DNA of 44,783 nucleotides, from positions 1 to 44,783 of the IMG/VR virus record IMGVR_UViG_3300020202_000113; one strand, given 5' to 3'. The notes beneath the pieces were generated by a model. It saw nothing but the letters and a program-made list of their open reading frames with translations. It had not been told where the DNA came from and did not search any database. This document shows, piece by piece, positions 12,953-35,452 of this stretch (positions are counted from its first letter, which is position 1; each line of letters opens with the position of its first letter). Both the position numbers and the translations under genes were made by a program. Source of the DNA: a virus.

Positions 12953-13319
12953 TTGTTAGAAAACTTTCGGAATGAAGTAGAGAGGGAGCTCTCGACCTCA
13001 CACCCGCACAAGCACAGAGATTGTCCGTTCAGGCTGCCCGCAGGTAGCCCTTCAGGGTCACGTTCCGTTCGTGTGTAGAGAATCTTTAGACGCTTCAGGG
13101 GCGTCGAGCCGCCGAATAAAAATTCAGCGCGGCTATTTTAATGAATGATCCCGAGGAGTGCGCGTACACCCGGCTTCAGGCCCTAGGCAGCCATCCGCGG
13201 CTCTCGGGGTTCATGCTGGGTTGGTCCTGTCCGTACCAGCAGCTACTTCCCAGGATGCCCGAGCTTATTTAGCGACGTATTTGCTCACCGTCGTGCTGGT
13301 TCTCGCGGAATCCCAGCAG
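12953..13319 (-). other. Untranslated structured leader between tRNA-Asn and capsid gene
   Basis: No convincing gene is present in this 367-base stretch. The minus-strand RNA has several strong hairpins: two independent TGCTGG/CCAGCA stems (13206-13315), a 10-bp stem with a U4 loop just upstream of 13085 (arms contain GCCG/CGGC and CUGAAU/AUUCGG), GACGC/GCGTC next to it, a CCC-UGAA-GGG hairpin, and GAGAG/CTCTC about 25 bases before the capsid ATG. It may be the 3' part of the structured RNA, a tRNA 3' trailer, or a leader that controls capsid translation. Confidence 0.55.
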
Positions 13320-13395
13320 TGGCTCCAGGGCTTGGATTCGAACCAAGGGCCAACGGATTAACAGTCCGCCGCTCTACCAACTGAGCTACCCTGAA
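13320..13395 (-). tRNA. tRNA-Asn (anticodon GTT)
   Basis: A complete 76-nt cloverleaf is visible on the minus strand. The acceptor stem TTCAGGG pairs with CCCTGGA (one U-G), the D arm has GCTC/GAGC, the anticodon stem is GCGGA/TCCGT around loop CTGTTAA with anticodon GTT, and the T arm is CTTGG-TTCGAAT-CCAAG. G73 and a genome-encoded CCA follow. It lies 45 bases downstream of tRNA-Trp in the same direction. Confidence 0.94.
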
Positions 13396-13440: not shown

Positions 13441-13517
13441 TGGCACGCACAGGATGGAATCGAACCACCAACCAGCAGGTTTGGAATCTGCCGCTCTGCC
13501 AATTGAGCTACTGTGGT
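13441..13517 (-). tRNA. tRNA-Trp (anticodon CCA), acceptor stem with a bulged C
   Basis: The minus strand gives a 77-nt cloverleaf: D arm GCTC/GAGC, anticodon loop TTCCAAA (anticodon CCA), T arm GGTGG-TTCGATT-CCATC, G73 and encoded CCA. Two oddities are seen. The 3' acceptor strand has one extra C, so ACCACAG pairs with CTGTG-(C)-GT. Position 31-39 of the anticodon stem is an A-C mismatch. It could be functional with a bulge, decayed, or carry a one-base sequence error. Confidence 0.85.
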
Positions 13518-14205
13518 ATGTGGACCCCACGCTGGGAACAGAGGTCCGTTACGTCATCCCCGAACTCTTGCCATGGTCCGCACGTCCCGTGTTGATAGCT
13601 CCCACGGGGGAGTTGAAAAACGATAGAAGTACCGACCAGGGCCAATCCCGGAAAACCGGTATGAACCCCAGCCGGTCTTCATTTAAGAGACCACTTGGTT
13701 CCTTGTGGTTACCTACATACGGTTCTTTAGGCGACCGCAGCCCAACCCGAAGGAGACAGGTATCTAGGACGTAGGTGACCCCGAAGTGGTCGTGAAGAAT
13801 GTCCCGCTCCACGGGGAGACGGGGCCGGCAAGGCACGTGACCTTACCGGGGCGAAGAAAAGTTCTCACGTAGCTGGCTGTTCCAGCGGCCTCGGTAAGGT
13901 TACCCGGCCGTAAGCGAGAAGAATGGCACCGCCTCTCCGGAGGTTAATCCGGAAATTATTTTTTAGCCCACAGGCAGGAGCGAGGCGGGTGAGGGTGTGC
14001 CGTCCTGGTTCTCCAGCCTCAGCCAACTGAGGTGCCCACGCCGGGGCATGACGACTATCTTTGGTGCTACACTTCGCTCCTCTCGGAGGGGTCACAGATG
14101 TAGCCAACTGCCGGTGCGGCCGCACCTCCCGGAAAATGCCACTTGGCGTTACCCTCCTGAGAGCCGGGTTGCTCTCGGTGGATTATCCCGCGTTACCGGG
14201 CCTCT
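13518..14205 (-). ncRNA. Candidate giant structured RNA next to the tRNAs (GOLLD/ROOL-like setting)
   Basis: About 690 bases between the lipoprotein gene and tRNA-Trp hold no convincing protein gene but many hairpins. Several make sense only on the minus strand: CTCC-GAGA-GGAG with a GNRA loop (14077-14088), GACC(A)C-UUCG-GGGUC with a UUCG loop (13777-13791), and a 9-bp stem with a U-G pair (13825-13849) that has a C-A mismatch on the plus strand. Other stems: 14017-14032, 14113-14126, 14159-14176, 13690-13709. The motif GGUAAC recurs four times. Known giant phage RNAs (GOLLD, ROOL) have this size and lie by tRNAs; membership in either family is inference. Confidence 0.55.
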
Positions 14206-20521: not shown

Positions 20522-20857
20522 TTATTGAAGAAGGGCGGACTTCACCGCCTGCTCATACCAATCAGCAACCGCCCGAATCTGGTTCGGAGAGGCGTTCTGT
20601 TTGATCGTGTTAGCGAGCTTGCTGATAACGACGACGTTGCCCCTGACGTAGCCCATCTCGGGGACCAGGCGGTCCAACTGAGGCGAGCCGTCGTGGGCTA
20701 CCCCAATGCCCGGCACCAGCGGGATGCCGAGAGCTGGGCAGTGGGTAGGAATCACGATGTCTTCCAGGGTCAGGTTGAACGGTAGGTTCGCGGCCCGAGC
20801 CCTGGCTCTCGCTGCGCTAATGAGTCTCAGCCCAATTTCCGCCGATCTTGTATTCAC
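20522..20857 (-). CDS. HNH endonuclease-like protein
   Basis: The likely GTG at 20855-20857 lies inside the end of the DNA polymerase gene and gives 111 residues; the start is uncertain because no ribosome site is clear. The C-terminal half has the phage HNH pattern: THCPALGIPL, then SPQLDRLVPEMGYVRGNVVV and ISKLANTIK with the conserved Asp-Arg and Asn residues. Such free-standing enzymes often sit next to DNA polymerase genes and act as homing nucleases. It has only one Cys, so it probably lacks a zinc site. Confidence 0.75.
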   Translation of the reverse strand: MNTRSAEIGLRLISAARARARAANLPFNLTLEDIVIPTHCPALGIPLVPGIGVAHDGSPQLDRLVPEMGYVRGNVVVISKLANTIKQNASPNQIRAVADWYEQAVKSALLQ

Positions 20858-22724
20858 CCGCGAGCGGGCAGAGGGAATCGAAGCAGACGCCGGCCTTCGC
20901 AATCGCCGCTGCCGCCGCTTTGCCAACGTCATCGGCAATTTCCTTTCGGGCACTGATCTGCCACTCGTCATGCACCATGGCACAGAAGCCCCAGTCCTTG
21001 CCGTGAACCCACCCACGAGCGGTGAGGTCATCGTAAAGGAACTTGGTGGCCTTCTTCATGACCACTGCCTCGAACCCCTGTAACAACCCCGCGAGCCCGA
21101 AGTGGGCATTCTCGCAAGGAATCCTCCGGCCATCCAAGCCGGTAATCGATCCGGTTTCCTTCACGCGGCGCTCAAGCTCGTTCTTCAGATGTTTGAAGGC
21201 GGGGAAGTTCTTGAGGAACTTCGCCCTGAGCTCGGTGCCGGTGGCCTTGTTCTTCCCGACGATCTTGCCGATCTTCGGGTCACCAGCCCCCAGGAGGTAG
21301 GCGTAGATGAAGGTCTTGGCCACGTCGCGGGTCTCAATGATCCCCTCGGTGGCCTTCATGTTGGCCGTGTGAACGTCACCGGTGGTGACCAGCTCAACGT
21401 ACTTCCCACCGTCCCAGCGGGCCAGGTAGTGAGAGAGAGCGCGAAGCTGGATGCCGGAGGCGTCGGCACCGACGAGGACATGGCCCTCATTAGGGACGAA
21501 GAGCGCGCGGCACTCGTAACCGTAGTGACCAGCACTGCCCATGATGGGGTGCTTGTCCTTGCCGATCATGACCGAAGGAATCTGGCCCATGTTCGGTCGC
21601 TTGTGGCTGCACCGGGAGGTCCAGGTGCCCATCGTATCTACCTCGCCGTGCATCCGGCCATCGGCCTTTACCAGCTTGAGCCAAGCGTTGTCGCCCTCGG
21701 CCACCTGACCGAGCTGCTTGGCCACCATGAGGTACTCCGTCAGGAGCTTCGCCTCGGGGTAGTCGAGACCGCTGAGGATGGCCTCATCGATCTGGGGCTT
21801 GCCGCCGTCAGTGAAGACCTTGGGCTTCCAGCCGCGTTCCTTCAGGGCTCGGGCGATGTGGTCGCGGGAGCCGGGATTAAAGGGCGTATGCTTCTTCTTT
21901 AAGGGGCCAGGGCGTATGTTCTTTGCCTTAGCCTTCTGGGCCGCCCCCTTCGTCGGGTACTGCCTCGTGACTTCACTGACAGTGCCACGCGCAAAACCAT
22001 TCTCGCTGAGGATCGTGCCTTCGTAATACTCCGGCGTCTTCATGTCCTCCCACCAGCCGGGGAAAGTGGTCTGAAGTTGGGCTTCCAACTCCAACTTCCT
22101 CTTCACCAACTCTGCATGCAGCTTGTGGGCCGCGGGCTCATCGAACCGGAAGCCATGCTGCTCCATCTCGAACATGACCTGGGCGAAGTCGTGCTCGACC
22201 TGGATGGCCTCTTCAGAGAACTTCTTCGACTGGATCAGCTTCCAGAGCGCGGCGGTAGGTCCGTCCACGTCCTGTACGCAGTAGTCGAGCATCTCCTTGG
22301 TGAACTCCTTCCAGTCGGCGGTCTTTCCGAAATCACCCTTACGGGCCTTGAGGCGCCAACCCCAGGCTTCTAGGGAGTGGGCACCTGTGAGGTTCTTGGG
22401 GAACCCCTCGACGCGGGCCTTCTTGTCGAGCTCGGCCAGGTTGGGCCAGATGAGCTTGGCGAGGAGGAAGGTGTCCCGAACCTTGCCCTTTGGCTTGAAC
22501 CATGGGTAGAACTTCTGAATGACCGGGATGTCGAAGCGGATGATGTTGTGGCCAACAATAACGTCGGCCTCCATCAATTTCCGAAGGAGCGGCTCAATAC
22601 CTCCGTCGCTAGCAACCCCAATATGACTAGCCCCGGCCTCTGGGTCACAGGCCACCAAGCAGTGGATCTTGGTGACCTTCTCCAGCAGTCCGTCAGTTTC
22701 GATGTCAAAGAGAAGGGTCGTCAC
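20817..22724 (-). CDS. DNA polymerase, family A, T7 gp5-like
   Basis: I chose the GTG at 22722-22724, which overlaps the upstream TGA; it gives 635 residues (T7 gp5 has 704) and puts the exonuclease motif FDIETDGLL at residues 6-14. Polymerase motifs follow: LVGADASGIQLRALSHYL (motif A), RDVAKTFIYAYLLGAGD (motif B) and MVHDEWQ with H585-D586-E587 (motif C). All proofreading and polymerase acidic residues looked for are present. It copies phage DNA with the primase-helicase. Confidence 0.95.
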   Translation of the reverse strand: MTTLLFDIETDGLLEKVTKIHCLVACDPEAGASHIGVASDGGIEPLLRKLMEADVIVGHNIIRFDIPVIQKFYPWFKPKGKVRDTFLLAKLIWPNLAELDKKARVEGFPKNLTGAHSLEAWGWRLKARKGDFGKTADWKEFTKEMLDYCVQDVDGPTAALWKLIQSKKFSEEAIQVEHDFAQVMFEMEQHGFRFDEPAAHKLHAELVKRKLELEAQLQTTFPGWWEDMKTPEYYEGTILSENGFARGTVSEVTRQYPTKGAAQKAKAKNIRPGPLKKKHTPFNPGSRDHIARALKERGWKPKVFTDGGKPQIDEAILSGLDYPEAKLLTEYLMVAKQLGQVAEGDNAWLKLVKADGRMHGEVDTMGTWTSRCSHKRPNMGQIPSVMIGKDKHPIMGSAGHYGYECRALFVPNEGHVLVGADASGIQLRALSHYLARWDGGKYVELVTTGDVHTANMKATEGIIETRDVAKTFIYAYLLGAGDPKIGKIVGKNKATGTELRAKFLKNFPAFKHLKNELERRVKETGSITGLDGRRIPCENAHFGLAGLLQGFEAVVMKKATKFLYDDLTARGWVHGKDWGFCAMVHDEWQISARKEIADDVGKAAAAAIAKAGVCFDSLCPLAGEYKIGGNWAETH

Positions 22725-30643: not shown

Positions 30644-30754
30644 TGGTATCTCATTGCAGATTCTATGTATCGCATCTCGGTTAGTCAATCGGCACCTTTC
30701 GCCTTATCCTATCAACATGTTACGATGATATTGAACAACCTATGTGACTGAGCC

Positions 30755-34739: not shown

Positions 34740-34913
34740 CTACTCTGCCTTATAGTACCGCTCCCCCATGATCCGGCCCTTGCGGTCCACGTCCCTCATC
34801 CCGAGCATCGGCCCGGTGCGCACCAAGCGGCCCGTGCGGTCGTCCTTGAGGTAACGGTAGATGGGCTCTGAGTGGCTGTAGGTGGAACCGCTGTAGTGAG
34901 TGCGGAGTGCCAT
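34740..34913 (-). CDS. Hypothetical 57-aa protein
   Basis: The ATG at 34911-34913 overlaps the pentapeptide gene's TAA by one base. The product is basic and Tyr/Arg-rich (THYSGSTYSHSEPIYRYLK, RKGRIMGERYYKAE). No family is recognised. Confidence 0.6.
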   Translation of the reverse strand: MALRTHYSGSTYSHSEPIYRYLKDDRTGRLVRTGPMLGMRDVDRKGRIMGERYYKAE

Positions 34914-35452
34914 TAGTTGTAGTCCTTCGCTTCCGCCTTGGTGATGAAGAAGTGGATGCCCGGCGCGCACTCCTGCTGCCAGTTCGGGTCGAACTCCATG
35001 GTGGGCACCACGACATCTCCGACACGATACATGAAGTCCCGGTCATAGTCGCTCCGGGCTTCGATCAGCGGGCTCCCATCCGCGGCCTCGATGCTGATGA
35101 CAACAGCACGCTCGGCCCGGCACTTGCGACCGAAAGCACTGGACCGCGCTGCATCGGCCGGGATGCGGAGCTTGACGATGGCCCCCTCGCGGCACTTCTT
35201 ATAGCCGATGATGTCACCCTCAGGGAGGATGCGGGTCTTCGCGATGACCAGGTCCGCCCCCTTGGCGCCCGCGAGGTTGGCGCCCGCGAGGTTGGCGCCC
35301 GCGAGGTTGGCGCCCGCGAGGTTGGCGCCCGCGAGGTTGGCGCCCGCGAGGTTGGCGCCCGCGAGGTTGGCGCGCGCGCCTGAAGGGTCACCCTGAAGCC
35401 ACTTCTTGTGCTTCTCAAGGATACCGGGGAGGTCTTGGGAGGTGATCGTCAT
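34913..35452 (-). CDS. Pentapeptide-repeat protein with DUF5758-type C-terminus
   Basis: The 179-residue protein has seven identical ANLAG pentapeptide units (about residues 28-63), then a C-terminal domain with GDIIGYKKCREGAIVKL, RSSAFGRKCRAERAVV and ECAPGIHFFITKAEA, the DUF5758 pattern often fused to pentapeptides in phages. Pentapeptides form a rod-like helix, in some cases mimicking DNA. Here the rod is very short. A sigma70-like promoter with an operator-like palindrome lies upstream. Function is unknown; a decoy or anti-host role is possible. Confidence 0.82.
   Translation of the reverse strand: MTITSQDLPGILEKHKKWLQGDPSGARANLAGANLAGANLAGANLAGANLAGANLAGANLAGAKGADLVIAKTRILPEGDIIGYKKCREGAIVKLRIPADAARSSAFGRKCRAERAVVISIEAADGSPLIEARSDYDRDFMYRVGDVVVPTMEFDPNWQQECAPGIHFFITKAEAKDYN
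35264..35370 (-). repeat. Seven identical 15-base repeats in the pentapeptide gene
   Basis: The unit GCGAACCTCGCCGGC (minus strand) is repeated seven times without a single difference, including wobble positions. Protein-level selection would allow drift, so recent slippage or unequal exchange is likely. Each change of copy number adds or removes exactly five residues and keeps frame. Confidence 0.95.

Follow-up and report, generated by a model that had tools for sequence, protein, structure and literature searches.

A conserved candidate structured RNA between the scaffold and capsid genes of two related T7-like phages

The window analysed here is the whole of a 44,783-base virus contig, IMGVR_UViG_3300020202_000113, which belongs to a T7-like phage. 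Its gene set comprises a T7-type RNA polymerase, a T7-type primase-helicase, a family A DNA polymerase, a tyrosine integrase and T7-type scaffold, capsid and tail proteins. Judged by RNA polymerase and capsid, the closest cultured phages are T7-like phages of Mesorhizobium, Rhizobium, Bordetella, Pseudomonas and Roseobacter, at 38-50% identity. The late genes are encoded by the minus strand and run from portal through scaffold, lipoprotein, the region studied here, tRNA-Trp and tRNA-Asn to capsid (Table 1). Inspection by eye shows a lipobox (LMTGC) near the N terminus of the lipoprotein and a hydrophobic stretch near its C terminus, and an acceptor end of tRNA-Trp that pairs poorly, possibly with a bulged C, and is followed by an encoded GCCA. 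An earlier, sequence-only reading of the locus held that scaffold and capsid genes are normally adjacent in such phages and that the stretch before tRNA-Trp lacks a convincing gene. The first statement is half true, since the gap ranges from about 190 to 1950 nt among the relatives that we fetched, and the long gaps mostly hold lysis-type genes. The second was borne out: PHROG and Pfam searches of 13518-14205 returned no protein match, and in the relative described below its frames do not stay open. Rfam searches of the window, this relative and eight further relatives, at gathering as well as lax thresholds, returned tRNAs only.

A scan with the scaffold protein identified one relative, IMGVR_UViG_3300045391_000106 (L054; full contig L134), whose capsid and scaffold proteins are 81% and 74% identical to those of the window. 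L054 carries two conserved blocks, A and B, at the same place between the scaffold and capsid genes. Together they form a conserved core of about 285 nt. The RNA of L054 is compact, about 350 nt long (approximately 2362-2712), and its block A starts about 10 nt past the upstream stop codon. The flanking genes of the two phages are 71-72% identical at the DNA level. In a flanking alignment of 9.2 kb the best 77-nt window reaches an identity of 0.909, compared to 0.935 for block A, whereas the identity of block B is equalled by 10-21% of the 150-nt flanking windows. Within the blocks no reading frame is kept open in both phages except for short stretches; the frames are interrupted and shifted. 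The linker between the blocks has predicted helices of its own, including ACCUUACCGAGG/CCCCGGUAAGGU, and is without an alignable counterpart in L054. Likewise, neither terminal arm of the window RNA has comparative support.

Table 1. Coordinates of the proposed RNA, its parts and its neighbours (window coordinates unless L134 is given).
Feature	Position	Strand	Remarks
Proposed RNA, whole	13518..14205	-	Upper bound of ~690 nt, from the lipoprotein gene end to the tRNA-Trp 5' end
5' extension	14107..14205	-	~100 nt; absent from L054; folding only
Block A, conserved domain 1	14106-13996	-	93.5% identical to L054 over 77 nt; predicted fold: hairpin GCUACR/YGUAGC, single strand ACCAAAGAUA, tight four-way junction
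Variable linker A-B	13788..13995	-	~210 nt here, ~90-100 nt in L054; single-sequence folding only
Block B, conserved domain 2	13787-13618	-	79% identical to L054 over 150 nt; predicted fold: three-way junction, short hairpin, long irregular hairpin
3' extension, block B to tRNA-Trp	13518..13617	-	~100 nt; absent from L054; folding only
tRNA-Trp (CCA anticodon)	13445..13517	-	ARAGORN and Rfam tRNA; 5' end abuts the RNA
tRNA-Asn (GUU)	13320..13395	-	ARAGORN
Lipoprotein gene, 156 aa	14206..14676	-	Upstream of the RNA; no PHROG or Pfam family
Capsid gene 5' leader	12953..13142	-	~75% identical to L054, with covariation; separate from the RNA
HNH/endonuclease VII-like gene	L134 2733-3167		Directly after the RNA, in place of the tRNAs; PHROG 3322, E=1e-33

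The four-way junction of block A is closed by GUCGUS/SACGGC and holds the hairpins UGCCC/GGGYA, CCUCAG-UUGG-CUGAGG and CUGG-AGAA-CCAG; the single strand ACCAAAGAUA ahead of it is conserved in L054. The three-way junction of block B consists of ACCUAC/GUAGGU, of GUCC/GGGC together with ACCUG/CGGGU, and of UGCGGU/ACCGUA, which carries the loop CGCCUAAAGA. It is accompanied by the short hairpin CCAC-AAGGAACCAA-GUGG, whose loop has ten bases, and by the long irregular hairpin, which ends in CCGG-UUUU-CCGG and has a conserved internal loop. Moreover, block B contains a loop pair, UCCUU/AAGGA, that is invariant in both phages.

The helices of both blocks are kept by double-sided changes between the two sequences. 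In block A all 27 pairs are kept in both phages, two of them with changes on both sides. In block B 97% of the 74 pair cells remain paired; five of the hand-set pairs are changed on both sides (A-U/C-G, U-G/G-C, C-G/U-A, U-G/G-U and G-C/A-U), compared to 2.5 in shuffles and none when the partners are slid by 1-3 columns; the RNAalifold structure of the block gives seven such pairs. Shuffle controls were modest (11/500 for block B, 144/500 for block A). Scored against column-shuffled alignments, block B is better kept on the transcribed strand, with a z of -4.8 sense and -1.0 antisense. Block A scores nearly as well antisense (-4.1) as sense (-4.6) and does not discriminate, so that the strand call rests on block B. 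Independent changes are few because there are only two sequences, and we regard their covariation as good but not final support for a structured RNA. The stems thus covary as the sequence-only reading would have it, and a conserved protein, which would have spoken against it, did not turn up in the form of either a family match or a frame kept in L054. What had been proposed, a minus-strand structured RNA beside phage tRNAs, is upheld by conservation and compensatory changes in the sole relative L054. We consider the minus strand of 13518-14205 to encode a real structured RNA, and the argument for it is comparative and does not come from the cues on which it was first proposed.

Those cues fared unevenly. 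That the region is "packed with hairpins" carries no weight, since its folding energy is ordinary for this genome: in 120-nt windows of the minus strand its mean z is -1.17, compared to a genome mean of -0.65 (sd 1.18), and it is not among the 20 lowest-scoring stretches. Folded whole, the 688 nt give a z of -2.25 on the minus and -3.03 on the plus strand. GGUAAC, said to recur four times, was dropped as a repeated motif, its count being no higher than chance; 60% of the 688-nt windows of the genome carry some hexamer at least four times. The GAGA hairpin does exist, as CUCC-GAGA-GGAG at 14084 and on the minus strand only, and a C(UUCG)G loop can be read at approximately 13786, but both sit in arms that L054 lacks or has replaced. 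The U-G pair in GUCGU/ACGGC is readable as described. A tRNA-like domain, suggested by the D-arm lookalike CCUC-AGUUGGCU-GAGG, was rejected because there is no T loop and the arm lengths are wrong.

The neighbours of the RNA differ between the two phages. Upstream lies the lipoprotein gene in the window versus a holin-like gene and overlapping Rz/Rz1-like genes in L054 (roles assigned by eye); the lipoprotein is possibly a one-protein spanin that stands in for the Rz/Rz1-like pair. Downstream, the two tRNAs of the window are replaced by the HNH/endonuclease VII-like gene, a possible homing endonuclease, and a tRNA search of the L054 contig found none. Since the neighbouring genes differ on both sides, the RNA appears to be a unit of its own that is kept independently. 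Location near tRNAs, a trait of GOLLD RNAs, is therefore present in the window and absent in L054, and neither "giant" nor "beside tRNAs" survives as a lasting trait: the L054 RNA measures about 350 nt and is followed by an endonuclease gene. This phage, LUZ100 and RHEph01, which have different hosts, all carry a tRNA-Asn (GUU) in the scaffold-capsid gap (window 13320-13395; L157, 2640-2715; L161, 2746-2819), which suggests a conserved tRNA place. LUZ100 and RHEph01 are integrase-bearing T7-like phages that resemble the window in late gene order and in having a structured capsid leader. They differ in that covariance models R1 and R2, whose founders are the RNAs of the window and L054, find no convincing match in them despite the tRNA-Asn. 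Because the RNA occurs without a tRNA in L054, and the tRNA-Asn without the RNA in LUZ100 and RHEph01, RNA, tRNAs and endonuclease appear to be separable items within one exchangeable interval. The scaffold-capsid gap of T7-like phages thus serves as an exchange place for tRNAs, an endonuclease, lysis genes and structured RNAs.

To our knowledge, very few classes of large structured phage RNAs have been described. ROOL forms an RNA-only nanocage with a conserved kissing loop, and both GOLLD and ROOL are suspected to act late in infection as RNA scaffolds or RNA-protein particles. GOLLD, found in phages and prophages and frequently close to tRNAs, is a large structured RNA composed of conserved and variable parts; it forms an RNA-only nanocage and rises at lysis (PMC12286853). 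ROOL is likewise phage-borne, structured and often found near tRNA islands (PMC12286853). The RNA of the window shares this genre, being phage-borne, structured, several hundred nucleotides long, close to tRNAs and made of conserved and variable parts, and the sequence-only reading had left it between GOLLD, ROOL and a new class. It is improbable that it is a strongly diverged relative of either. The GOLLD model (RF02032; gathering threshold 150 bits, model length 416) found no match at E<=10 in sensitive scans of the window or of L054 1800-3400. Neither did the ROOL model (RF03087; 99.1 bits, length 574) at E<=10, the sensitivity of this search resting on standard cmscan runs, as the control genomes are without ROOL. 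Moreover, the short form of about 350 nt is well under both model lengths, the core of the RNA is a two-block structure of about 285 nt, and its second member is not tied to tRNAs. In the absence of a match the RNA is filed as neither, and a new class is favoured. A ribozyme, or what remains of a mobile, intron-like element that moves together with an HNH-type endonuclease, is brought to mind by the endonuclease gene directly after the RNA in L054, an arrangement also known from group I introns, and by AAAGAUAGUC, which by eye resembles the S segment of a group I intron. This explanation is slightly less probable still: group I and group II intron models have no match at E<=10 in the window or L054, AAAGAUAGUC has no partner GACUA segment upstream, the position is intergenic with no interrupted gene around the RNA, and the copy in the window is without an endonuclease. 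A group I intron proper was rejected on the same grounds (no model match, no GACUA partner, no split gene).

That the region is a GC-rich spacer or contains an unnoticed small gene, and has no function as RNA, would agree with its single-sequence folding, which is no better than in much of the genome; we think it very improbable, given that block A is conserved beyond any comparable flanking stretch, that pairs change on both sides and that the frames are not kept. The alternative to be taken most seriously, though still rather unlikely, is a cis-acting element of the late mRNA that governs transcript stability, processing or termination where the lysis genes give way to the capsid gene and that does not exist as a separate RNA. 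The RNA lies inside a co-oriented late gene block, the leader of the capsid gene is structured too, LUZ100 has a phage promoter as well as three mapped RNA ends in the corresponding interval, and local control of transcripts is described for the capsid genes of T7-like phages (PMC10134795). Yet about 470 nt of unrelated cargo separate the RNA from the capsid leader in both phages, immediately downstream lies a tRNA gene in the window and an endonuclease gene in L054, most relatives are without the RNA, and its size and multi-domain fold go beyond what a processing signal calls for.

The explanation that we prefer is a free-standing, non-coding structured RNA of the late region, with two conserved domains, a variable linker and, in the phage of the window, extra arms, to which we assign a probability of about 0.5. 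Conservation and covariation in one relative, the lack of a kept reading frame and the exchange of both sets of neighbours are its observed basis. Such an RNA fits no described family and looks, by comparison of sequences, like a new, two-member class of phage RNA. More tentatively, this would be a novel type of large phage RNA that shares no ancestry with GOLLD or ROOL and whose two-domain core with exchangeable arms works in free form, as an RNA machine or a scaffold, in the late phase of infection by integrase-bearing T7-like phages.

The free-standing RNA would be transcribed with the late genes through read-through of the phage RNA polymerase. A search for LUZ100-type promoters near the RNA found none above the shuffled background, and intrinsic terminators and sigma-70 promoters occur at chance level only. 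As the RNA region abuts the 5' end of tRNA-Trp, cleavage there by RNase P would free the 3' side of the RNA and so produce its 3' end. A parallel may exist in LUZ100, whose terminator annotations, by our reading of the record and of PMC10134795, span -60..+40 around a mapped RNA 3' end. Applied to T16 of LUZ100, this reading places the end in the T run of T16. For T14 (20769-20868) the end computes to about 20829, 2 nt ahead of the tRNA-Asn at 20831, which is consistent with a cut at a tRNA 5' end in this interval. This single end could also be a weak terminator, as a CUCCGU/ACGGAG hairpin precedes it; LUZ100 itself is without the RNA. In the proposed RNA the folded domains A and B are joined by the linker, which varies in length and sequence, and the window phage adds its arms. 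The unchanged loops ACCAAAGAUA, CGCCUAAAGA, AAGGAACCAA and CAUA/GAUU may make tertiary contacts or bind a partner, and UCCUU and AAGGA of block B may form a loop-loop contact; taken together, they suggest a compact tertiary fold. The RNA would act on its own and not through its neighbours. Its task is best guessed, by analogy with GOLLD and ROOL, which is not evidence, to be that of a late-infection scaffold or RNA-protein particle. The compact relative of about 350 nt belongs to the T7-like group, whose transcription is well studied, and would offer a tractable model in which a deletion can be tested; moreover, minimal core (about 350 nt) and enlarged form can be compared directly.

Further members were sought in several ways. 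Viral contigs were scanned six times with DNA patterns and 84,980 genomes once; only L054/L134 was recovered, and the other hits that were checked were protein-coding chance matches. Used together on 49 sources, R1 and R2 recovered only the two founders, as did R2 alone on 50 whole virus records. Neither model matched L153 or L154, nor was there a convincing match in seven cultured phage loci. By BLASTN, neither RNA gave more than weak chance matches to cultured phages, and the same held for the L054 RNA and plasmids. The RNA class is rare in the collections searched.

The capsid leader is a different matter. In most T7-like relatives a hairpin with the pattern RCC-stem-UGCG-stem-GAYAAYC precedes the capsid start codon by about 67-95 nt (window 12953-13100, minus strand; L060 3466-3514; L079 6767-6817; L156 2898-2947; L160 2908-2958; L161 2900-2950; and others). 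Across 24 sequences 99% of the pair cells are kept, and there are 25 cells with double-sided changes compared to 5.3 in shuffles. Searched with a covariance model of the hairpin (R3), most of the records show about one copy per genome, immediately ahead of the capsid gene; two weak hits of R3 lie elsewhere, one in Lo5R7ANS and one in BB8 on the opposite strand. R3 misses the enlarged form that is present in the window, L054 and LUZ100. The Rfam searches gave no match for the hairpin. It is a capsid-specific, strongly covarying RNA element across T7-like phages.

Two further features of the window lie outside the late region. In the early region, the minus-strand gene at 34913-35452, whose protein matches PHROG 9562 and others, contains tandem 15-base repeats (35275-35390) that encode a pentapeptide-type repeat, about ANLAG. 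Finally, a partly palindromic motif resembling ACATAGCA-N-TGCTATG is found at minus-strand 5' positions 30668, 35520, 37559, 38002, 38065 and 39015; its copies are intergenic, around the RNA polymerase and integrase region, which makes it a candidate repressor operator.
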